Under the pieces are notes generated by a model, which worked only from the letters and a program-made list of their open reading frames with translations, had not been told where the DNA came from and made no database searches. A program made the position numbers and the translations under genes. Below, piece by piece: positions 480 to 14,732 of a stretch of DNA of 64,000 nt. Each line of letters opens with the position of its first letter. Position 1 is the first letter of the stretch. This stretch comes from Actinoplanes octamycinicus (GTDB lineage Bacteria > Actinomycetota > Actinomycetes > Mycobacteriales > Micromonosporaceae): NCBI RefSeq assembly GCF_014205225.1, contig NZ_JACHNB010000001.1, positions 2,771,501 to 2,835,500 of the forward strand, in the 5' to 3' direction.

Positions 480-2808
480 ACCACCGGTTGTGCTGATAGG
501 CGAAAGCGTCGGGCCCATCGAGCTCCTGCGTGGTGTTGTTGAGCCGGGCGAGGAAGACCGAGCCCTTGGTTCCAGTCTTGGTGCGGAGTGTGTACACCGG
601 CTCCGAGGCGGGCGCGACGTCTATGCGAGCGACCGTGCGGCTGTCGATGCTGCTGAACCTGACGGTGACGTTAGCCATGGCGCCCTTGCCGAAGTCCAGG
701 ATCAGCAGCTGGGTGAGCCACTGCTCCCAGGCGTCGGTGTTCTTCTTGGTGAAGACCGTCAGGTCCTCCTCCAGGCCGAGCACGTTCCCGTCGTCCTCGA
801 CGCCGACGAGCAGCGTCCCTCCGTGGCCGTTCATGAAGCCGGCGACCGTCTTGGTCACCGCCCACTCGATCGCACGGTCCTTCTGACCGGTAGAAAGGTT
901 CTTCCGGCCGGTCGACTTGAACTCGACGATCTTGCTCTCGCCCGCCATGATCAGCGCCTGGATGCTACGAGCCAGCGCGGCCCCGCCTTGGTACTCGGCG
1001 AACGGGCTACCGTGGTTGTCTCCGCGGTTCACGGGCCGGCCAGTCGCATCCTCAATCTGCCGGATCAGTCGTTCGTAGCGAGCATCGAAGACGGCCCGGA
1101 AGTCGTCCTGCCGCAGAGCGACCGGGTCGATGTCGTGACTGGCGATGATCGCGTCCAAGTCCTGGGAGTCCACTGGCAGGTCGGCTTCGACTGCGGCCAG
1201 GTACTTGCTCGGAGCGTTCGTGCCGATGTATCCCCAGGTCTGTCCGTCGATGGCGGTCTTGTTGACGATGCAGTTGGCGTAGCCGCTGTCGATGCCGTTC
1301 GCCGCGCACCACTTCTGCGGGAAGATGTGGCGGATGTCGATCGAGTCGGCGGCATAGGCCTTGGCGTCGATCGTGTCGCCGGTCCGGAAGTCACGACCGC
1401 CGCGTTTCATGGCGAGCGCGTAGAGACCTTTGTAGGCGGCACTGTTCCGGGTCCGAAGGCCCAGGAGCCGTTCGGCCTGGAACTGGGACTCGCGGACCGT
1501 CCGCGGTTCTTCACCGTCGTCCTGGATCCAGCTGAGAACGTCTTGCAGGTCGTTGGCGAATCGGGTGTCGGTGGTACCCCCGTACAGCTCTCCGAATACT
1601 CCGCACCAGTACCACTGGCGCAACTTCGCTCGGGGTGCAGGCTTGAAGGCGTCTTCGCCCAAGAGCGTGAGGATTGCGGTCAACGGCACCAACTGCGTGC
1701 TGTACGGAAGGTCGCGGGCACGGAAGATGCGCTCACCATGCAGAAAGCGCACGACGCGCTGAAGCGTGTCGGTGACGGCGTCGGCCCAGCCCTTGTACCC
1801 GCTCAGCGGCAACGACAACATCTCGCGACGCTTGGCGGATACTCCTGGAACGCGGTCACCACGAACCCGCTCCTGCATACGTTCTTCCCAGCGACTTCGG
1901 GTCCAGAGCAGGGTCACGATCTGGAGAAAGGTCGTGGCGTCCAGATCGGCGAGTAGCGGCTCATCGGCCCAGGTCGCCTGCCGCCGCTCCCAGTCGTCCC
2001 GCAACCTGAAGTCCTCCGCGGCGAACGTCGCCGTGAGCAGCTCGAACACCGTCAGTTCAACACCCCCGGTGTTGACCTTCTCGAAGACCTGGCAGACAGC
2101 TTCCTTGGAGGTCTTCTGGTCGAGCGCAATCCGGGGGACGCTGTAGTGCAAGAAGGGCGAGATCAGCGCCTCCTGAAATCGCTTCCAGATCTGGAGTTGC
2201 TGGTCCATCGACGGTCCTGCCTGCAGGTAGGCGTACTGCCAGTCGAGGGTGGCGTTCTGATCCAGGACGATGTCAAGGGGGAAGAGGCCGGCCTTGCCGG
2301 CTCGTACTTGGGCGTCGGTCGTAGAAGCATCGAGGAGGAGTTCGCCGCGAGAGCTCAGCCGCCGTTTGTCGGCCGGGAGCGACAGAATGGCCTCGTTCCG
2401 ATCAGCGTCCGGGTCGATGCAAGCGTCGATGTCGGCGAAGTACCAGCGCTCGACCTCCTTCTTCCGGGTGTCCCGAGTCCGGACTGGTGCCCCAGAGCGA
2501 AGGGCCAGGTAAAGAGACGTAGTCCGTTGCTGGCCATCGAGCAGTAGGTACTTAGGGTTGGTGGTCGCCGTGGCGCTCGGAGCTCCCTCCAACGGCCGGG
2601 GCCGGAACCGAACCTCGGCGTTGCCAGTTTCGAGCGTCATCACGGCGCCGATTGGGAACGAGCGAGAGACCGACGCGAGCAGGCTTACGATGTGGTCGTC
2701 GTCCCAGACCCATCCCCGCTGGAAGTCGGGAAGCTGCAGCACACCTTGGCGCGCTTGGTTCAACAGGTCTGCCAGCGGAACATCGCCGCTCTCGAACGTC
2801 TTAGCCAC
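472..2808 (-). CDS. GmrSD-like DUF262/DUF1524 protein fused to AlbA_2 (Schlafen-type) domain
   Basis: 778 residues, GTG start with a good GGAGGG ribosome site. The N-terminus (about 1-260) is a DUF262/ParB-like NTPase domain, with LPDFQRGWVW near residue 25 and DGQQRTT near 90. The middle (about 330-600) is a GmrSD C-terminal/DUF1524 HNH-type nuclease domain, with RHIFP (His about 494) followed by the conserved NKTAI and SKYL elements. The last about 155 residues (from GESKIVEFKST, about 620) are an AlbA_2 domain as in Schlafen-like proteins. GmrSD-type proteins are type IV restriction enzymes that cut modified phage DNA; the AlbA_2 tail is not part of classical GmrSD and probably adds nucleic-acid recognition. 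It is divergent from the next two genes. An anti-phage role is inferred from domains and from its place on a mobile element. Confidence 0.85.
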   Translation of the reverse strand: MAKTFESGDVPLADLLNQARQGVLQLPDFQRGWVWDDDHIVSLLASVSRSFPIGAVMTLETGNAEVRFRPRPLEGAPSATATTNPKYLLLDGQQRTTSLYLALRSGAPVRTRDTRKKEVERWYFADIDACIDPDADRNEAILSLPADKRRLSSRGELLLDASTTDAQVRAGKAGLFPLDIVLDQNATLDWQYAYLQAGPSMDQQLQIWKRFQEALISPFLHYSVPRIALDQKTSKEAVCQVFEKVNTGGVELTVFELLTATFAAEDFRLRDDWERRQATWADEPLLADLDATTFLQIVTLLWTRSRWEERMQERVRGDRVPGVSAKRREMLSLPLSGYKGWADAVTDTLQRVVRFLHGERIFRARDLPYSTQLVPLTAILTLLGEDAFKPAPRAKLRQWYWCGVFGELYGGTTDTRFANDLQDVLSWIQDDGEEPRTVRESQFQAERLLGLRTRNSAAYKGLYALAMKRGGRDFRTGDTIDAKAYAADSIDIRHIFPQKWCAANGIDSGYANCIVNKTAIDGQTWGYIGTNAPSKYLAAVEADLPVDSQDLDAIIASHDIDPVALRQDDFRAVFDARYERLIRQIEDATGRPVNRGDNHGSPFAEYQGGAALARSIQALIMAGESKIVEFKSTGRKNLSTGQKDRAIEWAVTKTVAGFMNGHGGTLLVGVEDDGNVLGLEEDLTVFTKKNTDAWEQWLTQLLILDFGKGAMANVTVRFSSIDSRTVARIDVAPASEPVYTLRTKTGTKGSVFLARLNNTTQELDGPDAFAYQHNRWFK

Positions 2809-3133
2809 TCCAGCCCTCCCGAGGCTCGCTCCCGAGCCACAGTAGACGTCAACTCGTCCGCATGTCCCGCCTCCGGAACTGGATCTTGCGCAAGGGGCCG
2901 GTACTCCGACAGCATCTCGAAGCGCGACGACGTTTCGATGATTGGATCGGGGAGCCGTTCATGGCGGACGGCGCTGTGGCGGCCTGATCGGTGGAGTCCG
3001 ATGATTCATGTCCGGTTCGCCAGCCGGTTCGAGCGTCCGGTCTGGATCATCCAGACGATGGTGGAAGGTGCCGCGACGCTGGATAGTGGTGGGCAACCGA
3101 ACAGAGGTGGGTGACCTGGTGGCTGGGGAAGTC
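2809..3133. other. Divergent intergenic region
   Basis: 325 bp between the start of the minus-strand nuclease and the plus-strand unknown protein. It must hold both promoters. I see no convincing hairpin, tRNA or conserved small ORF; the open frames here give Arg/Ser-rich translations without a usable ribosome site. Confidence 0.5.
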
Positions 3134-4054
3134 ATGGACGTGCTGGCGCTTGAGTACGCCGAACGACAGTTGATCGTCGTTCAGCGTGACGAGCAGATTC
3201 TCGCGCACCGTCGCCGGTCCGACGCCGACTCTGAATCAGGGCAGTCCATCGCCGCGGCCTTTAGCAGAGGCTTGACGAGCAGCGCCATCCTTTCCCCTCT
3301 TTTTCTGCTTCCCCGGGTAGCGCTGCGCGGTCTCCCGCGGCCTGGGCTTGGCGGCCGTGGGCCAGTAGTGGCCCTGGCTGTCGCTGGTGTGGCAGTCGCG
3401 GCTGGCGCTGCCGCTGGCGTAGCAGCCGATATGAAGCAGTCGTCGTCGGCCGAGCCTTCTGTGCGCGGAATCCTTCCTCTCCGTACAGCCGAGATTGCCA
3501 GCCTGCAACTGCCGCTCGGGCATCCGCTGTTCGACACGGTTTACGTCGGGCACCCTGCTCGGCCAGCTTCCTACTATCCACTTGCCGACTTTCATCGGCG
3601 GGCCTTCGAGCACAAGTTCAGTGAGGCCCTGCGGCTGGTGACCAGCCTTGGCGCGACGACCATCAAGGTATCCGCGGTTCAGGGGTGGGGCCGCGAGTTC
3701 TCAGCCGGCCTGCAAGTGGGGCTGCCGACCGCGAAGAGCGCGGGCGCCAAGGTGAAGTCGCGTGAGTCCCGCAGGCGGGAGTTTCTGTACTCTGCCGAAC
3801 TCGCTGGGTCGACTGATCCGGTCATCCCGTCAAACCTCGTTTGGTACCCGCACGAGGATGCATGGCAGGAGATTGCCCGGCAGCGGGTGGAGCACGGACT
3901 GCGGTCGTTCGAACTGCGGGTCACCTACCAGGACGACTTTTCAGTGACCAGCGAACTGGCTGCGGAGGTAGCGCAGGCGAACTTCAAGCTCGGCGGCGAG
4001 TTCGAGCGGCAGCAGTCAACCATCTGGGCAATCACCGGGACATTCGCGTGCTGA
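3134..4054 (+). CDS. Unknown protein with one membrane segment and C-terminal beta-rich domain
   Basis: 306 residues from the ATG at 3134, chosen because GGGGAAG precedes it; the frame is open further upstream but reads as noise. Residues 1-30 form a short hydrophilic start (MDVLALEYAE...), about 77-98 is an Ala/Val/Gly-rich hydrophobic segment, and about 105-306 is an alternating hydrophilic/hydrophobic domain (SEALRLVTSLGATTIKVSAV; FELRVTYQDDFSVTSELAAE; ending in AITGTFAC). I do not recognise the domain. The gene stands 95 bp upstream of, and in the same direction as, the giant kinase fusion, so the two may be co-transcribed. A membrane effector or partner of that system is possible, but this rests only on position and the single hydrophobic segment. 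Confidence 0.65.
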   Translation: MDVLALEYAERQLIVVQRDEQILAHRRRSDADSESGQSIAAAFSRGLTSSAILSPLFLLPRVALRGLPRPGLGGRGPVVALAVAGVAVAAGAAAGVAADMKQSSSAEPSVRGILPLRTAEIASLQLPLGHPLFDTVYVGHPARPASYYPLADFHRRAFEHKFSEALRLVTSLGATTIKVSAVQGWGREFSAGLQVGLPTAKSAGAKVKSRESRRREFLYSAELAGSTDPVIPSNLVWYPHEDAWQEIARQRVEHGLRSFELRVTYQDDFSVTSELAAEVAQANFKLGGEFERQQSTIWAITGTFAC

Positions 4055-4149
4055 GTCGACCGCTCGCCTTGCGGCAGCCCGGCTGCCCCATGCACTCCAC
4101 CGCCAAGTAACGTTGCGCGCTCCTGTGCGTTCGGGAGGAAGCCGTCGGC

Positions 4150-7100
4150 ATGTCGTACCCCATCGTTGCCTCTCTTCCAGACCCGACCTCGGCCGCAGAC
4201 GATTTGCGGCTCGGCGACTCGCTTGTCGCCGCGCTCGGCGAGCGAGGTTGGCGAGTAGGTGACGACCCCTTGCGAGCACGCTGGTTGCGGCTTGCGGCCT
4301 GCCATTCCACGTTCTTGTACGAGTTCGGCTCTCTGCCGATTTCCACCGCAGTGTTGGCGGTGCTCGGGAAGGTGGGTGCCACTCACGTAACGCTTGCGGT
4401 GGCCGACCTCGTCGTGGAACGCACCCGTCCGGCCGAGGTTGGAAAGCAGAATCACATCGTTGCCCACGTGCCTGGAAGGATTGCCCCACTTCTAGCCAAA
4501 GCTTTGACTGTCGCCGAGGCGATGAACCTGGGCAAGGGCGAGGAGCCCAACCGGCACGGCGCGTCTCGTCTGGCTGAGGATGTCATGCACCAGATCTTGG
4601 GTGTGGTGGTGCTCCTCGGAGGCTACGAAGCTGTCAAGCGGTTGGTCGCAGACTTCTACGAAGAAGCACTCGCGCAGGTGCTTACGGACGGTGTCGACTG
4701 GTGGGGTGAGCTGACGCGCCTCGTACCGGCTCACGAGCTGACGGTCAACAACCACAAAGAAGGTCCAGAGCATCAGCCGAGGTTCGTTACGGAGATCATC
4801 GACGTCCAGGGGCGGGGAGGACGTGCTGAGTCTCCAAAGCGAATCGGCTCGAAGAAGCTGGCAATACAGGACTACCTGCGTAAGACCGGTCGTTATGGCG
4901 TAGTCATGGCGCGCTCAGGCGCGCAGTCCCTCCAACGGCTCGACGGTGAGCCTCGCCCCTACGCGCCGAGGCGAGGCCCGCGGGAGGAAATAGTCGCGGA
5001 CCTGGCGGCGACGCTCCAGATCAAACGGGAGCATCAGGCCTACCTGCAGCAGGCGCTTACTCATAAATCGTGGGCTTATGAGAATCAGCCCGTAGTGCGG
5101 CAGGCCCGGCAGAATCACTACGAGCTCTTGGCCAACCACGGCTCTTACGTCGTCGGAGCGGTGTCCGCTGCAGAGTTCACGGTGGACCTGCTGCGCCGGA
5201 CCCTCAAGCCCAGCGCCGAAGACAGCGCGATTCACTCTTGGCCTGAGCGCTGTTACGTCGCCATGTTCGAACGATTTGTACAGGAATCAGCCGTGCTCCG
5301 CGGCCGAGGCGAAGCACAGTGCAAGCCGCGCATGAAGGCGGACGTCTTTCAGGCGCTCGCTTCGGTCGCCTGGCGCTTCGGCGAGAACGGCGTGCCGAAA
5401 GCGGTGCGCGGCTGGATCCTGCGAGAGACTCTTGCTCAGAGTTTAGACGAGTTCAGCCGATTGCAGCGGCTGTGCGCGGTCTTCGGCGGTGAGGTCACTT
5501 CCGACCACACCGCAGAAGGGCCCCATCACGATTCGCGTTTCACCGCGACAGTTAATCTCCGTATCGACGATCTTGAGGTCGTTCGTACCGGCCCGCCCAC
5601 TCCGGGAAAGAAGGAGGCCACGCGGCTGGCCGCCGAGCGGTTCTCTCAAGTCTTCGCGCTAGGGCCGGATTTACGGGTGGCTGACCTGAAAGCCGAAGAC
5701 CGGGCGGACGGCATGCGGCTCTTGCCCCATCTCGCTAAGCGATTGCCGCTGACGCGCGGCCGCAATCTCCGGCGCTGTATTGAGGAAGGAGTTCTGGGGC
5801 TAGGCCTGCTCGCTACGTCCGACCACGACATAGAGAGCTTTCTGGCCTGGGCGGAGGAGGCCGACTCGCTAACCGGCCCGCTCGACGGTGAGGCGTTCGG
5901 CAGTCTGGTGATCGCCTACGGCAACACCGTGAGAGCACGGCCACGGCCACGGCTGGAGCACGCGTTGCGAGAGCTGGCGGCCTGGGTACGCAGTCTCGAT
6001 CCCGAAGGTGAGGTCGTAGTCCGCGAAGCACCACAGTGGGATCTCCTACTCGCTGTGGCGGGCGCGTTACGGGCCGGCGCCGCTCACCAGGGAAAAACGG
6101 TCGACGAGGTTGCCGGAGCCCGGCTGGTGTCTGGGCCACAATCGGCGGCTCTTCTCACCGCAGCCGACGCAGCTGCCATGGATGAACTACTCCGAGAGCT
6201 ACCGGAAGCCTTCGCCGAAACAGTTCGGTTCCGGCGGTTGCCCGACGGGGTCCGCGTAGAGTTCGCCACCGCGGCTCAGGTTGAGAGTAGCCGGGTCCGT
6301 ACTCTGATCGGATTGCTTGCCGAGACGGCACCCGGCCTCGGCCTCTTCGCAGGGCCCGACAAGCAGACGCTGAGCGCCACTTATGCACCCGACCCTGCCG
6401 AGCAGTCATTCGCGGCGGCAGGCCGGCTCGCGGCTCACGGCCCGCAAGACCGGGACGGCACCGCCATCCTGGCGAACGTTTTACACAGGCTCAAGAACGA
6501 GTTGATCGGCATGGAGGATGTAGCGCGAAAGGCTGCGCTGGCTGGCGACCGGGTGACCCGCTACCGCCGGCTCGCCGACGTCGCTCGGCATCACGAAGCT
6601 GCGGTTCTTCTGGCCGATCACCTGGATCGAACTAACCAGGCGCTTGCGGATGCCGACGAGGAGTTGACCGAGTTTGGTCCTTGGATCGACGAATACTGCG
6701 CCGCCAAGACCCTTCAGATCGCAGACCGGACGAACATTCGCCTGGTCCCGCCGCCAGAGTCACGGTCTTGCGAAATCTCCCTATCGCCGTCGCTGCTACG
6801 CGAAGTGCTGGATAACCTCATCAAGAACGCCGTCGAGGCGATGCCGGGCGGCGGCCAGATCACCGTCGACTGGCATACCGAGCCGGGCCATGTATTCGTT
6901 GTCGTACACGACGACGGCCCGGGGCTGCCCGACGAGGTCCGTACGGCCTTTCTGCAGGGCGAGACAGTGACCACCACCAAGGAGCACGGCTCTGGAATGG
7001 GGTTGTGGCTCGTCCGCAACGACCTTCGTCGGTTGGGTGGCACGATCTCTGATGATCCCGCGGCGGAAGGCCAGCGTTGGGTCATTGACCTGCCGCGCGA

Positions 7101-8355
7101 GGAAGTGACCGCAGACACGTCGGGTCGAGCAGCGGCACGGGCTGCAGAGACACAGACGCATTCGCGTCGGACAGTCCGGATATTGGTAGTGGATGATCAG
7201 GAAAACGTCGCGCGAACGATGGCTGGGCACCTCGAGCCGATCGCTGCTCAGGTAGTGATTGCGCATGACGGAAATAGCGCCCTGACCAGGCTGGCAACCG
7301 AACACTACGACGTGGTGGTCACCGATTTGCAGATGCCGCCTGAGCCGTGGGGCGGCCTGTGGTTGCTGAGGCGTATGAAGGACGACGGGCATCGAGTGCC
7401 GGTGGTGGTGCTTTCCGGCGAGGGGAACATCGACCAGGTGATCGAGGCGCTCAACGCCGGGGCAGCCGGTTATGTGACCAAGATCGATGCAGCCGCCAAG
7501 CTCGCCCCTGCCGTAGAGGAAATCCTGGCTGCTCTCCGGAGGCGCAGCCGGGACGAACTGCAGCATCTGCCGTTGCCGCTGGCGCTCGGCCTGCAGCGTT
7601 ACGAGTCGGAAACGGTCCCGAATCTGCGGGTGCGGGCTGGGCATATGGCGCTAGAAGATGCTCTTCGATTTATTGGCGCGGTAGGGCTGGGTGAACTCCT
7701 TAACGCTGACCCTGACGCCCGCGTTCCTGCTTCGGCGCTCGCAAGCCAGATGATGCTGGGCAAGTGGGTTGAGCTGCTGAAGGAACTCGGCCCGCGGCTG
7801 GCTCAGGACTCGTACGCCGGCCAGGTCATCCGAAGTCTCGACCTGGACAATCTCAAAGTGGCGAAGTCTGGTCGCAACGTTGTCGGTCACAGCTCGGAGC
7901 GCCCGAACGACGAGGTGAGCCGCATGCTGGGCGAGGTCGACCCGCTTCTGGAGCAGTTCGCTGCGGCCCTGCGGCATATTCCGAACCGCACCGTGATGAT
8001 CGCTGAAACTATGCGGTTGAGAGCGAAGCGGTACGCGGTCTCCGCTTTTCGAGTGACTGGCACTGGGCCTGTGCTGCCAAGTGCCGAGTTGACCAGCGAT
8101 GTCGGACTCGAGGAAAACTCTGTGGGTCTGTACCGGGAACGAACCGGCTCATGGATTCCGGTAGGCCCCTGGATGACAGCCAAGCCCGGCGGAACGCGAG
8201 GCGAGTGGCAGATTTTCGTCATCGACGGTGTTCGACGCGGGACTCGCAGTCGGCCGTCAGAGCTCGTCTATCACCCGTTCGGCCGCGGGGAGAAGTACAG
8301 GACAGCGGCCGACGAGGACGTTGAGAACCTAATCCGGCGATCGACGGCGCGATAA
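4150..8355 (+). CDS. Tandem RNase III-like/dsRBD + histidine kinase + receiver + HEPN-like fusion
   Basis: 1401 residues; ATG preceded by GGGAGGAAG. Domains read by eye: RNase III-like about 15-185 (LGKGEE at 127-132, LLGGYEAVKRLV), dsRBD about 195-250 (EGPEHQPRF, Lys235-Lys236), second RNase III-like about 285-435 (LQQALTHKSWAYEN from 299), second dsRBD about 440-505 (EGPHHDSRF, Lys487-Lys488), a 260-residue linker, histidine kinase about 770-1000 (His779 in LHRLKNEL, N box NLIKNAVEA from 889, DDGPG at 921, GSGMGL at 947), receiver about 1010-1130 (Asp1015/1016, phospho-acceptor Asp1059, Lys1111), HEPN-like about 1150-1275 (Arg1242-Asn-x-x-x-His1247) and a beta-rich tail. Both RNase III units lack key metal ligands (Glu/Asp replaced by Ala/Lys in unit 1; Asp replaced by Asn and Glu by Gln in unit 2). 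The dsRBD basic residues and all kinase/receiver residues are present. A dsRNA sensor driving a phosphorelay and RNase output is my inference; I know of no described family with this architecture. Confidence 0.8.
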   Translation: MSYPIVASLPDPTSAADDLRLGDSLVAALGERGWRVGDDPLRARWLRLAACHSTFLYEFGSLPISTAVLAVLGKVGATHVTLAVADLVVERTRPAEVGKQNHIVAHVPGRIAPLLAKALTVAEAMNLGKGEEPNRHGASRLAEDVMHQILGVVVLLGGYEAVKRLVADFYEEALAQVLTDGVDWWGELTRLVPAHELTVNNHKEGPEHQPRFVTEIIDVQGRGGRAESPKRIGSKKLAIQDYLRKTGRYGVVMARSGAQSLQRLDGEPRPYAPRRGPREEIVADLAATLQIKREHQAYLQQALTHKSWAYENQPVVRQARQNHYELLANHGSYVVGAVSAAEFTVDLLRRTLKPSAEDSAIHSWPERCYVAMFERFVQESAVLRGRGEAQCKPRMKADVFQALASVAWRFGENGVPKAVRGWILRETLAQSLDEFSRLQRLCAVFGGEVTSDHTAEGPHHDSRFTATVNLRIDDLEVVRTGPPTPGKKEATRLAAERFSQVFALGPDLRVADLKAEDRADGMRLLPHLAKRLPLTRGRNLRRCIEEGVLGLGLLATSDHDIESFLAWAEEADSLTGPLDGEAFGSLVIAYGNTVRARPRPRLEHALRELAAWVRSLDPEGEVVVREAPQWDLLLAVAGALRAGAAHQGKTVDEVAGARLVSGPQSAALLTAADAAAMDELLRELPEAFAETVRFRRLPDGVRVEFATAAQVESSRVRTLIGLLAETAPGLGLFAGPDKQTLSATYAPDPAEQSFAAAGRLAAHGPQDRDGTAILANVLHRLKNELIGMEDVARKAALAGDRVTRYRRLADVARHHEAAVLLADHLDRTNQALADADEELTEFGPWIDEYCAAKTLQIADRTNIRLVPPPESRSCEISLSPSLLREVLDNLIKNAVEAMPGGGQITVDWHTEPGHVFVVVHDDGPGLPDEVRTAFLQGETVTTTKEHGSGMGLWLVRNDLRRLGGTISDDPAAEGQRWVIDLPREEVTADTSGRAAARAAETQTHSRRTVRILVVDDQENVARTMAGHLEPIAAQVVIAHDGNSALTRLATEHYDVVVTDLQMPPEPWGGLWLLRRMKDDGHRVPVVVLSGEGNIDQVIEALNAGAAGYVTKIDAAAKLAPAVEEILAALRRRSRDELQHLPLPLALGLQRYESETVPNLRVRAGHMALEDALRFIGAVGLGELLNADPDARVPASALASQMMLGKWVELLKELGPRLAQDSYAGQVIRSLDLDNLKVAKSGRNVVGHSSERPNDEVSRMLGEVDPLLEQFAAALRHIPNRTVMIAETMRLRAKRYAVSAFRVTGTGPVLPSAELTSDVGLEENSVGLYRERTGSWIPVGPWMTAKPGGTRGEWQIFVIDGVRRGTRSRPSELVYHPFGRGEKYRTAADEDVENLIRRSTAR

Positions 8356-8436
8356 TGCAGTAGCCGTTCCGGCGTGAGACGATACCCAAGCCGTAGGTAG
8401 CGTGCGCGTACTGCGGTACCGGGGACGGTCGGTGCA

Positions 8437-8733
8437 ATGACAGACCCGACGCCCGAGTGTCTCCCGCCCGCCGCTCCCAGTGATCTTTCCGCGCCCACGT
8501 CTGGGCGAGTCCTCTTCCTCCGCCTTTACAACGAGGCCGTTGATGCTGTCCGAGGCGCTCTGGAGGCGCCGGCACCCTTAGCGACGGATACAGGCTTCCC
8601 TCCTGAGGGGTCTGGCGATCACAGCCGAGTGCGGCAAGAAGACTCCGCCGCCGCAGCCTTCAAGTCAGCCGTCGACGGCCTCTTCGCGAGTGACCAACCG
8701 GTGGAGTGGGCCGAGGTTGACGTGGTGGGTTGA
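8437..8733 (+). CDS. Possible small hypothetical protein (98 aa)
   Basis: ATG-initiated frame between the kinase fusion and the serine recombinase, same strand. It begins with a Pro/Ser/Thr-rich stretch, followed by a plausible amphipathic helix (VLFLRLYNEAVDAVRGAL) and an acidic C-terminus (EWAEVDVVG). The ribosome site is weak (GGGGACGG well upstream). No family recognised. It might be a small accessory to the upstream fusion or chance open frame in high-GC DNA. Confidence 0.35.
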   Translation: MTDPTPECLPPAAPSDLSAPTSGRVLFLRLYNEAVDAVRGALEAPAPLATDTGFPPEGSGDHSRVRQEDSAAAAFKSAVDGLFASDQPVEWAEVDVVG

Positions 8734-8900
8734 TCAAGACATGGAAACGGCTGAGGTCAGTCGCAGGTCATTTGGTCAGCAGTGAGCTTCAAGGTTCTCC
8801 CAGTTCAACCGGGATGCGCAGTTGATTGCGCCGCCGAAATCGGCGCGCACAGTGCCTTGTATCCGGGCCACCTCGGGAAACCTCTTGGAGAAACGCAGTC

Positions 8901-11900
8901 ATGACTACCGCCACCCCTCGCGTCGGCATCACAGAGCTCCTGGCGAACAAGCTGACCGGTTCGGTCGCGCTTCTTTGTCTCCGGGTCAGCGCCCAGAGCC
9001 CGGCGGAGCTCGCCGACAACATTCGCGCCGCGATTACGACGTTGAGCCACCTGCCTGCCGTCAACGTCCTGCGGGATGTCGACCCCCAAACCTTGCTCGA
9101 CAAGTCCGCCGCAGGCGATCGGATCCGTTCGCAGAGGGACTTGATCCCTCTGCGACGGCATCATGCGCACCGATACGCGGTCGAACCCAACCGACTTATG
9201 GGATATGCCCTACCCGTCCCCGATCAGGGTGCGGTCATCCTGATGCTCTTCGACAGCGCGGCTGATCCGACCGTTCGGACTCCCGATGAGCAGCTTCCCG
9301 GAAATGCCGTTTGCGCGTTGCTGTCCGAAGCGTGCCTGATCCCCCAGGTCCACGAGCTGCACGTCGCGGAATGGAGCCGATGGGTTCGCGATCCCCGATA
9401 CGGCGCTACAGTCCGTGCCGCGGCCCAGCGAGGCGGTGTCGACGTCTACGAGGGGTCCACCCACATCGACATCACCACCTCGAGTGGCGCGCTTCTGGCC
9501 GGCGTCAAGGACACCCAGGCCGCCGGTGAACGTAACAACATTCGAACCAGAACCACCCGCGGTACTCTGGCCAAGCTCACCGCGGCCCGCGTCATCTGGC
9601 CATACGCGCGAACCCTGCTGCCGCCGGCATACGAGCTGGAGTTGGACCGCGTCAGCGATGGCACCGGCCGCTCTCACCGGACCGCGTACGTGCGTGGTGC
9701 GTCCGGTGACCAGATCCCAGGCTGGCAGAAGTGGGCCGAGACCATCGCCAACGGCGGCACTTTCGCCGCCGCGGGACAGCATCTGGCCGCGCACAAGATC
9801 CCAGTCCGGGGCCAGCGGCACATCAATCTCGACGGCACCAGCAAGACTTACGACGAGCTCGACGGCCGACAGGTCGAACGGGCCTCACGTAGCCTGGCCG
9901 AGCACGTTCGCGTGTTGCGCAGGCTTGCGTACGTGGTCCAGAAGGATGTGCCCGTCCCGGTCCGCCGGGGTGACTCATTCGAAGGCTATCCGGTCGATCA
10001 CGATATCCCGGGTCGCTACGGGTACGGCGTCATCAACATCGAGGTGAAGTTGCCGGCCCACTGCATCACGCTGTCCGAGAAACAGTGGGACACCTGGGAA
10101 CACCGCATCTTCGGGCGCACGCCGCGAGACACTCTTACCGATGGTCTCCGGGCGCCGCTGGGCGACATCCGCCAGCAATGGTTCGTCGACGTTGCCGGTC
10201 GTCCGTGCCGTGAAGGCGATGCGAACTGGGTCCAGAACCTGCGGCTCGTGGTCAACGTCGACTCCTACGAGCTGTGGCGGCGTGGCCGCGACCAGGCGTT
10301 CAACGAACAGGGCGAACTCCGGGGCTGGGAGAATCGGGAGGGCGAACACCTCTACACGGTTCGTCGCGTTGACCTCGATCGGGCCTATGCGCGGGCCGGT
10401 ATCGCCACGGCTCTGCGCCACCTTGACGATCTCGAACCCGTCTTGGTGGAGTCCCGTCCGCTTGCTGACCCGATTGACCGCGAACGTCGCCGGCAGGAGC
10501 GGCTTGCAGAGCTTGATGACCTGCTCATCACTGCCAGCGACGGCGTCGAAGACGCCGACATGATCTACCAGCAGGCGGTACGCCGTTCCCGCGGCGTCGG
10601 AGAGGCCAAGGCCAGTCTGGAGGTCGCCCGGAACGAGCTGCAGGCGCTCAGCGATGAACAGAAGTCTCTTCGTGACGCCGCAGTACCGGAGACGGCGTCG
10701 GCTTCGAGCCGGGTCGTCGAGGTCGACATTGCTACGCCGGCACGCCTTTTCGGGGTGATGGAGGGCGGCGCAGGGATGTCACTGCCCCGAGTCGTCGGGG
10801 ACCTGATCTGTCGTTTGTCGGGGGGACGCATGACCGTTGAGCCCGACGCCGACCTGCCGCGAATGTTGCGGATAACCGACACGCTCGACTGGCCGACAGC
10901 GGACGGCAGCGTCATCCCGCTAAGAATCTCTGCAGCAGTCGAGAACCGGAAACGCGACATCGATCAAGCCAGTCGCCTGAAGGCGCGAAGGCTGACCATC
11001 GCCACCCTTGTTCTTCGCGACGGCCTTACCGCCGACGAGGCCGCGGACAAGCTCGGACGCAGCCGTGATGACGTGGTGACCGACGTCCGATCGTGGCTCA
11101 AAGATCACCAGCCAGTGAACGTGCCCACAAGGGGAGGGCGCAGCGCGTTGGTCGACTGTCCGATCCCCGAACCCAAGCGCGTCATCTGGGCAGCGTTGAC
11201 CGGTACTGCCGACGCCGGCGTAGCCGACGAGTATCGGCAGCTCATCACGGCTCGCTATCTCGCCGACGACATCATCCACGCCAACAGTTGGGTGCGCCGA
11301 AATCTGTCTTTCGATCGTCAGGCCCTGGCGGTCATCGCCACCCTCACCGGCCAGGGTATCGATGCCGAGCAGGGTATTCGGGCCGATGACATCGCCAACC
11401 GCCTTGGCTGCACGTCGCAGGACATCCTGTACCTGTGCACCGGTCCTAACGAGAGATATCGAGGCGTCCTCGAGCGAACCTCGACCTCCAGCCGTCGCGT
11501 AAGGCCGCGTCGCTGCGAGCGAGGACACTGGCTGCTGCACATCCTGCCCACGATCGAGACCGAGCAGTCCAATGGCCTGCTGTGCGGCGCCTGCCGTGCA
11601 ACGCCGGATGGCATCGCTCTGCCGGCTCCCTACTTCGACCTGTGGGATGGCCCGGAGGCTCGCCAGCACGACCTTCGGGTCGCTCCTGGCACGGTCCTTG
11701 CCCAGGCGCCTGTCGCCGTTGCTCCCGGTGCTCGACCTCGCATCATGCTGAACATCGGGGAAGCCGCCGCGTACCTCGGGGTCAGCACCTCAGCTCTTCG
11801 TACGTGGAGCAACAACGGTCAGGTGGCCTGCGAGCAGCGGCCCCGGCGGTATGACCAGAGGGTCCTCGACAATCCCGAAACTCAGGCGCTGGCAGCCCGG

Positions 11901-12281
11901 TTCCACTCGACTTACGGTCAGCGCAGCACTGCCGATGGCCGGATGACCCTACGGCAGGTGAGCGAACGTCTCGAGGTGCCGGAGCACTACATCCGAGACT
12001 TCTTGATCACGCCCGGGAAACTGGCGTACGTGCGAGGTGGTTCGAAGGGCAACCAGTTGCTCTTCGAACCGGTCGACGTCGATGCTGTCCCGCAGGAATG
12101 GCGTGAGCGGCACGCTGCAGGCCTTCTCGGCATCGGCGAGGTGGCCGAGCGGTTGCGGCTCTCTACCGGACAGGTGCGCTCAGCAGCAGCCGATGGACGC
12201 ATTCCGTCCGTAGTGACAGACGGCAACACGCGGAGGTTCCGACCCGGAGACATCGAAGCGTGCAACCCGAGCGCCGCATGA
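8901..12281 (+). CDS. Large serine-recombinase-like protein with three C-terminal HTH domains
   Basis: 1126 residues from the ATG at 8901 (GGAG about 10 bases upstream). The N-terminal about 210 residues resemble the serine recombinase catalytic domain: LRVSAQS near residue 27 for the nucleophile, SRWVRDP near 159 in place of DRLSRDP, then the IDITTSSGALL and GERNNIRTRTTRG blocks. About 230-370 resembles the recombinase domain; about 510-600 is charged and probably coiled. A Cys/His cluster (RRCERGHW near 872, CGAC near 895) looks zinc-binding. Three MerR/excisionase-type HTHs follow at about 948, 1014 and 1074. Usual large serine integrases are 450-700 residues, so this is unusually long. 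It may move DNA, or act as a recombinase-derived regulator or resolvase of the element, since a tyrosine integrase is also present. Confidence 0.65.
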   Translation: MTTATPRVGITELLANKLTGSVALLCLRVSAQSPAELADNIRAAITTLSHLPAVNVLRDVDPQTLLDKSAAGDRIRSQRDLIPLRRHHAHRYAVEPNRLMGYALPVPDQGAVILMLFDSAADPTVRTPDEQLPGNAVCALLSEACLIPQVHELHVAEWSRWVRDPRYGATVRAAAQRGGVDVYEGSTHIDITTSSGALLAGVKDTQAAGERNNIRTRTTRGTLAKLTAARVIWPYARTLLPPAYELELDRVSDGTGRSHRTAYVRGASGDQIPGWQKWAETIANGGTFAAAGQHLAAHKIPVRGQRHINLDGTSKTYDELDGRQVERASRSLAEHVRVLRRLAYVVQKDVPVPVRRGDSFEGYPVDHDIPGRYGYGVINIEVKLPAHCITLSEKQWDTWEHRIFGRTPRDTLTDGLRAPLGDIRQQWFVDVAGRPCREGDANWVQNLRLVVNVDSYELWRRGRDQAFNEQGELRGWENREGEHLYTVRRVDLDRAYARAGIATALRHLDDLEPVLVESRPLADPIDRERRRQERLAELDDLLITASDGVEDADMIYQQAVRRSRGVGEAKASLEVARNELQALSDEQKSLRDAAVPETASASSRVVEVDIATPARLFGVMEGGAGMSLPRVVGDLICRLSGGRMTVEPDADLPRMLRITDTLDWPTADGSVIPLRISAAVENRKRDIDQASRLKARRLTIATLVLRDGLTADEAADKLGRSRDDVVTDVRSWLKDHQPVNVPTRGGRSALVDCPIPEPKRVIWAALTGTADAGVADEYRQLITARYLADDIIHANSWVRRNLSFDRQALAVIATLTGQGIDAEQGIRADDIANRLGCTSQDILYLCTGPNERYRGVLERTSTSSRRVRPRRCERGHWLLHILPTIETEQSNGLLCGACRATPDGIALPAPYFDLWDGPEARQHDLRVAPGTVLAQAPVAVAPGARPRIMLNIGEAAAYLGVSTSALRTWSNNGQVACEQRPRRYDQRVLDNPETQALAARFHSTYGQRSTADGRMTLRQVSERLEVPEHYIRDFLITPGKLAYVRGGSKGNQLLFEPVDVDAVPQEWRERHAAGLLGIGEVAERLRLSTGQVRSAAADGRIPSVVTDGNTRRFRPGDIEACNPSAA

Positions 12282-13270: not shown

Positions 13271-14479
13271 TCACTTGCCCGTGCGGCGACCGGGAAGCCT
13301 GCGCATCGTCGCTCTCAGGTGCTCGTCATCGTCGCTGGACTTGTGTACGTAGGTGTCGAGCGTGGTGCTCAGCTGTCCGTGTCCGAGCCACTTCTGTACT
13401 CGTGCCGGTGCGATCTCGTAACCGCCCTCCGCCACCGGCGCGAGACTCCAGGACGCGTACCCATGTCGCAACCAGTGGAAGGTCCAGATCCAATCGCACT
13501 CCTTCCGTGCGGCGCCGGCGAGCTTGCCGGCTTGATCCGCCCACTTCGTGCGAGAGCGATGCCGCGGAAAGAGCCATCCGCGCTCCGGCCCCTTGCGGCT
13601 TCTGGCATCCTCAATGAGGCTTTCGGCGATCTCGGTATAGCAGGACCACAATCGGGTGGTGCGGGTCTTGCCGCCCTTCGGTAAGGCGAGGTCTGGCCAT
13701 GACCCGTAGCGGTCGAGCTGCCAGTCCACCTGGACGTCCAGCGTCTTGAGATCGATCGAGTCGTCTCGCAGGGCAAGCGCCTCGCAGATCCTCAGACCCG
13801 ATCCGAAGGTGAGCCAGGCCAGACGATCCCCGTAGTGCGGGTACTGGAGTTCCAGCGATGCCGCGTACTCGTCGACATCCGTCACCTCCGGGCACAGGTC
13901 CACCGTTATCTTGTCGGCGTGGCCCTCGACGGCCGCACGGCTGCGGTACATCTTGACTACGCCGCGGCGCTGCTCATAAGTTCCGAAGGGGTTCCCTTTG
14001 AAGTAGCTGTTGTTGACCCCGAACTGGATGAAGTGCCCGACCGTGCGTGCGACGTTCTTGACGACCTGCTCGGATGCCTTCGCCGCCACCAATCCGCTGA
14101 AGATCGATGTGAAGTGGTACATCTCGGTGTCACGGCATCGCACAGCACCTACCTCTGCCGGAACGTGGACATTCCAGTCAGACTTGTACTGCCGGATCGT
14201 TCCCTCAGGAGCCCTTTCCTTCCGCAGTGTGTCGAGGGCGGCCTGCGCCAGTTCGTCCAGCGTCACCTCAGTCCGCGGGGCGACTCCCTTGAGCCCTTCC
14301 CGGAGGCGTGCGCGTAGCTCCTCGGCGCGTTCTTCAGCGTTCTCCCGGGTGCCGCAGCGCTCCTGCTTGCGATCTCCGTCGCCGGGCTTGCCGCCGGTCC
14401 AGTAGCTAACGCGCCCGTCGGCGTAGACCCGGACCGGATCGTTGTCCCGACGGCGGGTCACCTTTCGCTTAGCGGACAC
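13271..14479 (-). CDS. int: Tyrosine recombinase (phage/ICE-type integrase)
   Basis: 402 residues from the GTG at 14,479, which overlaps the end of the excisionase frame. N-terminal AP2-like/arm-binding part (VRVYADGRVSYW), SAM-like core-binding domain about 95-190 (TLDELAQAALDTLRKERAP...), then the catalytic domain with Arg in SGLRICEAL, HWLRHGYASW (His-x-x-Arg), His in WLGHGQLSTT and the Tyr nucleophile in LDTYVHK. All catalytic residues are present. The gene order attachment site - xis - int, with xis and int reading away from the site, is standard for ICEs and prophages; this enzyme most likely placed the element in the acyl-CoA dehydrogenase gene. A longer start at 14,635 would only read xis in another frame. 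Confidence 0.92.
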   Translation of the reverse strand: MSAKRKVTRRRDNDPVRVYADGRVSYWTGGKPGDGDRKQERCGTRENAEERAEELRARLREGLKGVAPRTEVTLDELAQAALDTLRKERAPEGTIRQYKSDWNVHVPAEVGAVRCRDTEMYHFTSIFSGLVAAKASEQVVKNVARTVGHFIQFGVNNSYFKGNPFGTYEQRRGVVKMYRSRAAVEGHADKITVDLCPEVTDVDEYAASLELQYPHYGDRLAWLTFGSGLRICEALALRDDSIDLKTLDVQVDWQLDRYGSWPDLALPKGGKTRTTRLWSCYTEIAESLIEDARSRKGPERGWLFPRHRSRTKWADQAGKLAGAARKECDWIWTFHWLRHGYASWSLAPVAEGGYEIAPARVQKWLGHGQLSTTLDTYVHKSSDDDEHLRATMRRLPGRRTGK

Positions 14480-14732
14480 GTTCCACCGCCCGCTTCCGCG
14501 GCTTCGGCTCCGGCTTCGCCGGCGTTGCGGGCTCAGCGGCCGCCAGCCAATCTTCGACCGTCCTGGGATGCCAGCGGGGAAGACTCCCCAGCATGCGGGG
14601 TGCCGGGAAAGTTGGATCTTCGGTGCGGATGTCACCCAGGTGACGCGTGCTGATCTTGAGGTACGCGGCGACGTCTTCGATGTCCCACGCCGTGCCGATG
14701 GAAGAGCGCTGCTCCTCGGTTGCTGATGTCAT
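14469..14732 (-). CDS. xis: Excisionase, MerR/AlpA-type HTH
   Basis: 87 residues from the ATG at 14,732 (an in-frame start at 14,810 is also possible). Contains a winged-HTH typical of excisionases: IEDVAAYLKISTRHLGDI, then RWHPRTVEDWLAA, and a basic Lys/Pro/Arg tail. It overlaps the integrase start by 11 bases, so the two are translationally coupled. It would bind near the attachment site and bias the integrase toward excision. Confidence 0.85.
   Translation of the reverse strand: MTSATEEQRSSIGTAWDIEDVAAYLKISTRHLGDIRTEDPTFPAPRMLGSLPRWHPRTVEDWLAAAEPATPAKPEPKPRKRAVERVR

Follow-up and report, generated by a model that had tools for sequence, protein, structure and literature searches.

The 64,000-nucleotide stretch of DNA analysed here, from the soil actinobacterium Actinoplanes octamycinicus (the window; G000:C1:2771501-2835500 in a 10.28-Mb single-contig genome) carries an open reading frame (ORF) of 1401 codons with an ATG start at 4150-8355 (+). 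Its product joins a tandem pseudo-RNase III module with double-stranded RNA (dsRNA)-binding domains (dsRBDs) to a histidine kinase, a receiver, a HEPN-type domain and an OB-like barrel. We consider it probable that this protein unites in one chain the two components of an actinobacterial defence system, a histidine kinase that senses dsRNA and a response regulator with a HEPN RNase. An earlier note on this DNA had read two RNase III-like/dsRBD units, a kinase, a receiver and a C-terminal RNxxxH domain in one protein, and this architecture was confirmed. Chance or a frame artefact is ruled out, since the order and the key residues are kept in relatives at 20-73% identity. Pfam recognized the receiver, the ATPase, the RNase III-like domain twice and the dsRBD once in the window protein, the RNase III-like and dsRBD scores lying slightly below the curated cut-offs. 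The best 25 of 140 NCBIfam matches were generic kinase or receiver models, and in relatives the NCBIfam RNaseIII model scored far below its cut-off.

The tandem RNase III-like sensor module

The sensor consists of RNase III-like unit 1 (residues 14-178; 4189-4683), dsRBD 1 (residues 184-246; 4699-4887), RNase III-like unit 2 (residues 279-429; 4984-5436) and dsRBD 2 (residues 434-503; 5449-5658), all encoded on the + strand, as are the parts described below. Residues 15-505 had been named beforehand as the segment in which the lack of an RNase III/dsRBD fold would tell against the reading, and structure prediction found the fold there. Both units have an RNase III fold by comparison and by structure prediction, and in the predicted model the two RNase III domains of the single chain pair as they do in Dicer. 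The alpha-beta3-alpha fold and a Pfam dsrm match were obtained directly for dsRBD 2. Pfam does not match the first dsRBD of the window protein, which was recognized through dsrm matches in relatives and through the predicted model (helix, three strands, helix); it also carries a GPxH motif. The RNase III fold and the evidence for Dicer-like pairing rule out that the protein is a common hybrid kinase whose N-terminus was scored wrongly.

The catalytic acids, which in Escherichia coli RNase III we take to be E41, D45, D114 and E117, were tallied in 34 sequences (near-copies included; 30 below 90% identity), and neither unit retains two or more of the four in any of them. At the third position, Asp occurs in 20 of 34 sequences for unit 2 and in 10 of 34 for unit 1, and at the first position unit 1 has Glu in 10 of 34; in the window protein, A328, S332 and Q401 stand at catalytic columns of unit 2. 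In a separate profile alignment no unit had all four acids in place, and the highest number aligned was two, reached by unit 1 of L037 and of L132. These two units show Glu at the fourth column, as does unit 2 of L039, and unit 1 of L133 has Asp at the second. An active RNase III is ruled out by the residue tally. The two units described in the earlier note are therefore present as pseudo-enzymes: judged by residues and predicted model, the module is a Dicer/Drosha-like intramolecular pair whose cutting residues have been lost. Such a module would be expected to bind dsRNA.

Between the module and the kinase, the predicted model shows a linker with helical and alpha/beta parts (residues 510-765; 5677-6444). 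Relatives have this region too, and it is also found (residues 510-765, P0001 numbering) in those that have no kinase. Among the PDB matches listed for P0001, all were occupied by the RNase III part and none fell to residues 510-765.

Kinase, receiver and HEPN-type domain

The kinase comprises a dimerisation and phospho-acceptor hairpin (residues 766-834; 6445-6651; model helices 768-797 and 801-834), with His779 (6484-6486) in the motif LHRLKN, and a HATPase_c ATPase domain (residues 881-983; 6790-7098; Pfam 2.2e-16) with N and G box residues. The marks of a histidine kinase are present, namely a phospho-acceptor His in a helical hairpin, an N box and G boxes, with His779 in the first helix of the predicted two-helix hairpin; HisKA gave no Pfam match in the window protein. 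His779, Lys782, Asn783, Asn889, Asp921, Gly923, Gly947 and Gly949 are identical in all 23 kinase-bearing sequences, L161 included, which upholds the complete kinase (His779, N box, two G boxes) claimed before. The claim of a complete receiver (residues 1008-1130; 7171-7539; Pfam 4.5e-20) held as well. We aligned the window protein with 54 receiver-HEPN proteins, having excluded 6 of 60 matches that were each shorter than 370 amino acids, and found Asp1059 and Lys1111 in 55 of 55 sequences and the acidic pair in 54, with one gap. Given these residues and domains, autophosphorylation at His779 and transfer to Asp1059 would be expected.

In the same alignment, the HEPN-type domain (residues 1135-1275; 7552-7974) keeps R1242, H1247 and E1169 in 55/55 sequences and N1243 in 54/55 (R1242-N1243-x3-H1247 at 7873-7890). 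A plain Foldseek search with the predicted model of the C-terminal part gave no match at E ≤ 0.001; the toxin of 7bxo is presumably HepT. The excerpted description of the HEPN superfamily gives an Rx4-6H motif, a polar residue after the Arg and an upstream acidic residue (PMC3710099). The domain of the window type has such an Rx4-6H motif, and we assign E1169 as the equivalent of the upstream acidic residue. Of the C-terminal HEPN-like domain put forward in the earlier note, the RNxxxH motif is conserved, and the HEPN fold is only moderately supported by the predicted model. The motif suggests RNA cleavage through R1242, N1243 and H1247, with a putative activity, target and direction of control. 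An OB-like small beta-barrel (residues 1280-1386; 7987-8307) forms the tail of the protein.

Distribution, genomic context and exchanged outputs

The two halves of the system find each other in both directions. At L032, L037, L132 and L133, the sensor kinase stops after the ATPase and the receiver-HEPN half is the next gene; this split two-gene form occurs in Streptomyces, Geodermatophilus and others. A search with the HEPN part (best 7,995 candidates scored) returned at least 60 proteins, mostly of about 400 amino acids with a receiver, from Streptomyces, Kitasatospora, Nocardia, Amycolatopsis, Micromonospora, Phytohabitans and others, and the receiver-HEPN half was present in 5 of 295 Streptomyces genomes at E ≤ 1e-60. 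Seven receiver-HEPN neighbourhoods were taken, two on plasmids and the five Streptomyces matches. At all seven loci, fetched by the receiver-HEPN half alone, a tandem-RNase III kinase lies directly upstream, and a sensor profile from which these seven genes had been left out matches them at 1.1e-70 to 3.6e-84. The two genes overlap by 4 nucleotides in 4 of the 7 pairs, and one of the pairs is annotated 'ATP-binding protein' and 'response regulator'. Because of this two-way association, which is our strongest evidence, we place the sensor and the HEPN effector in one pathway.

A search with residues 1-860 (best 7,999 candidates scored) returned at least eight proteins at E ≤ 1e-5, the named ones from Micromonospora or Catellatospora, and the matches align over their full length except P0006, which ends early in the receiver. 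Within the taxonomic family, 17 of 354 genomes have a match at E ≤ 1e-5: five carry full-length fused genes (G000, G221, G222, G086 and G090), and of the remaining 12, G232 has a broken copy, G075 a divergent one, and ten have RNase III frames with a single unit. Apart from the window's own genome, none of these 17 comes from the same genus. A genome scan and profile search added Geodermatophilus, Sphaerisporangium, Nonomuraea, Planomonospora, Streptomyces, Rhodococcus, Nocardia and Actinopolyspora. The N-terminal profile matches 392 of 394 genomes of the class at ≤1e-12 and covers the tandem in only four (the window's own, G453, G394 and G735); the other listed class matches span a single unit, as expected of ordinary RNase III. 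In the sensor tree, the fused forms fall on one side of a branch (100/100), the position of L133 being unsure. The single-protein reading of the earlier note is supported, with a correction: the fused form makes one group in the tree, and the kinase-bearing copies examined outside that group consist of two genes.

Two copies are broken, G232:C7 (L031) by an internal loss and P0006 by its truncation in the receiver, which fits the turnover of a defence gene. A weak match (1.3e-13) to the HEPN-tail profile at G498:C1:151350-152015 (L149) lies in an 811-amino-acid frame and is perhaps an effector in another architecture. Phage records gave no match for the L157 sensor.

Outputs are exchanged on the shared sensor, some relatives retaining the sensor and not the kinase/HEPN output; one sensor with various outputs is typical of immune receptors. 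Eight relatives combine the tandem module with an N-terminal 'GNRWVG'-type motif (L036, L039, L040, L041, L043, P0012, P0013 and P0014); no Pfam kinase domain was found in L036, L039, L040, L043, P0012 or P0013, and none is listed for P0014. In P0015 (Actinopolyspora lacussalsi, 1076 amino acids), which seems to be without the first dsRBD, CoiA_N is fused to the tandem RNase III-like module (26.6 bits, cut-off 26.3) and is possibly a nuclease output for the same sensor. L038 and P0011 have neither the GNRWVG motif nor a kinase. The N-terminal domain of the kinase-less relatives (L036:9332-12535, L039:9446-12394, L040:8453-11338, L041:7148-10051, L043:9497-12301, P0010 and P0012-P0014) is of the GNRWVGVVALxxPPxPLHKMA type and belongs to no Pfam family; they make up a separate candidate dsRNA-responsive family.

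In window coordinates, GC content is lowered between about -11 kb and about +15 kb (about 0.53-0.67, vs ≥0.72 further right), and the window gene lies within this stretch. A phage-type integrase (13271-14635, -), identified by Pfam and the GC shift, stands near the right island edge. To the left of the gene are a type I restriction-modification (R-M) set, a HEC-07-like gene and a GmrSD N-terminal domain fused to Schlafen AlbA_2 (472-2808, -; Pfam and PADLOC), the last being defence context and not a proven partner. The integrase, the GC shift, the GmrSD_N-Schlafen protein and the defence neighbours bear out the earlier placement of the gene on a mobile element by a GmrSD-like nuclease. Neighbours elsewhere include Druantia DruE and GmrSD (L028), HEC-07 (L027, L030), Avs3 (L032), a cyclase of the cyclic oligonucleotide-based antiphage signalling system (CBASS; L040) and DpdE with HmaC (L043). 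At L132 (9469-12720), NucC, a TRIP13-like ATPase and a cyclase of CBASS lie a few kb from the two-gene copy.

PADLOC at ≤1e-8 matched 19 of 34 scanned neighbour ORFs, hand-picked mostly by size with one to several per locus, vs 0 of 10 control ORFs, a small set that was not size-matched (10 of 12 roughly evenly spaced ORFs of the window's own genome, minus L135 and L144). Three of the 19 matched by a small part only (the window ORF at 8826, one in L037 and one in L039). A strong match was found at 8 of 13 loci (the window, L027, L028, L030, L032, L040, L043 and L132), those of L037 and L039 being partial only, and the single ORF scanned at each of L029, L036 and L133 gave none. The scan left out L038 and L041, and the count left out L031, whose copy is broken and whose neighbours are those of L028. 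The DruE of L027 was assigned from its 97% identity to the L028 copy, these two loci having a common neighbour.

No third gene was common to the 14 loci compared, besides transposase genes and near-identical islands, in a comparison that had no DtcB-directed search. The gene pair common to L029, L037, L040, L041 and L043 was rejected as a partner, those tested being transposase genes. A partner role was also rejected for the upstream 348-amino-acid ORF (3008-4054, +; no match in Pfam, PADLOC or NCBIfam) and the downstream 98-amino-acid ORF (no match in Pfam or PADLOC), since neither has a counterpart beside other copies. Transposase genes (HTH_Tnp_1, rve; L037 16874-19277, L041 3392-4704, L029 5510-6154 and L043 4062-4998) near several copies are a further sign of mobility. 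The ORF at 8826-12281 (+; 1151 amino acids) has a weak resolvase-type stretch, several helix-turn-helix domains and an excisionase-like C-terminus, and is perhaps island recombination machinery. Neither the window nor any of the nine loci scanned showed a tRNA as an insertion site, and a scan of 2800-9000 gave no promoter-like sites and 3 terminator-like sites vs 3.4 expected.

Proposed mechanism, alternatives and known systems

In the mechanism that we propose, the tandem RNase III/dsRBD pair would bind phage-derived dsRNA without cutting it, and binding would alter the kinase, leading to autophosphorylation at His779 and passage of the phosphate to Asp1059. The receiver would then free or dimerise the C-terminal HEPN domain, which would cut RNA via R1242/N1243/H1247 and so halt phage production or the growth of the infected cell. 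Arrest of the phage or the infected cell is suggested because of the defence-island context. We also lean, with slightly less assurance than for the window protein itself, towards a wider family of actinobacterial innate immune receptors, in which a dead Dicer-like tandem RNase III/dsRBD module senses phage dsRNA and is joined to swappable outputs (a phosphorelay with HEPN RNase, a CoiA-like domain or a GNRWVG domain), convergent with PKR and OAS-RNase L.

The sequence fixes the parts of the system and not their direction, and the fused and split forms permit the opposite sign, in which constant kinase activity in healthy cells would keep the HEPN domain inactive through a phosphorylated receiver, and the RNase would be released once the kinase is shut down by dsRNA binding or because a host RNA ligand is lost. 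We regard this as unlikely, as constant phosphorylation would mean a steady use of ATP and no data favour it. The protein might instead guard host RNA metabolism, responding for example to structured host RNA or to inhibition of the cellular RNase III, with defence following from the disturbance of the host. Its patchy, defence-associated distribution and the kinship of the sensor to RNase III, found by the same profile in nearly all genomes of the class and as a tandem in four, would suit such a role; a Dicer/Drosha-like pair with two dsRBDs is most simply a binder of duplex RNA, and we think a guard rather improbable.

A non-immune two-component regulator, tuning RNA stability on antisense transcription or stress, would agree with a kinase and receiver of ordinary type. 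Such a regulator is nevertheless hard to reconcile with full-length fused genes in only 5 of 354 family genomes, a receiver-HEPN half in 5 of 295 Streptomyces genomes, copies on two plasmids, a setting among R-M, CBASS, Avs, Druantia and Dpd/Hma genes, and the existence of broken copies, and we give it little weight. Least credible is a direct antiviral nuclease in which the tandem RNase III still cuts dsRNA by another active site: the RNase III fold and the scattered acids (third-position Asp in both units, first-position Glu in unit 1) speak for it, and against it no unit retains more than one of the four.

If the phage-dsRNA mechanism is true, bacteria too possess a dedicated receptor for dsRNA, a classic alarm signal of eukaryotic antiviral defence, and couple it to their characteristic signalling device, the His-Asp phosphorelay. 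Next to RNA-sensing CBASS, this would be a second way in which RNA triggers bacterial immunity. A Dicer-like pseudo-enzyme would then serve as a bacterial receptor, in a single-gene system open to direct testing. Residue-level predictions (H779, D1059, R1242/H1247 and the dsRBDs) make every step checkable.

The window protein has the same tandem RNase III pairing as Dicer and Drosha and differs by its lost active sites, its fusion to a kinase and its bacterial host. PKR is a Ser/Thr kinase and OAS-RNase L uses a 2',5'-oligoadenylate (2-5A) messenger, unlike the His-Asp phosphorelay of the window system. The likeness to both lies in the logic of dsRNA-alarm signalling, a functional analogy for which we claim no common descent beyond single domains. 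Cyanobacterial fusions also place HEPN and RNase III/dsRBD in one protein; they are described as 'two-headed' active RNases, and the excerpted account mentions no kinase or receiver (Anantharaman et al. 2013; PMC3710099). CBASS CdnE03, which is activated by a structured, RNase III-sensitive phage RNA (CBASS-activating bacteriophage RNA, cabRNA), is likewise a bacterial RNA-triggered immune sensor and differs, as excerpted, in using a cGAS-like cyclase and a cyclic dinucleotide messenger (Nature 2023; PMC10686824). A 2026 survey of bacteriophage exclusion (BREX) systems describes a Schlafen RNase fused to a minimal histidine kinase, again an RNase with a histidine-kinase-type domain in defence, and its excerpt mentions no dsRNA-binding part or receiver (PMC12839542).

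Among the matches listed in a search of open-access titles and abstract starts (subscription papers and most preprints lie outside it), no dsRNA-binding or RNase III histidine kinase was found. The excerpted texts on Detocs, cabRNA and the cyanobacterial fusions contain no Dicer-like dead module and no dsRNA recognition coupled to a phosphorelay. In Detocs, a histidine kinase and a response regulator form an anti-phage system (PMC11728103, PMC11249213), and the likeness lies in a kinase and a response regulator with an enzymatic effector output, here a predicted receiver-HEPN protein. Detocs differs in having three genes (the kinase DtcA, the buffer DtcB and the response regulator DtcC) and, as its best-described effector, an ATP-degrading purine nucleoside phosphorylase (PNP); in the window system, the input is a Dicer-like dsRNA module and the effector is of HEPN type, no conserved third gene was seen, and the whole is sometimes one polypeptide. 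Because neither the dead Dicer-like module nor the coupling of dsRNA to a phosphorelay appears in the literature compared, we regard the receptor, and with it the system, as new; the signalling logic is of a known kind, with Detocs as its precedent.

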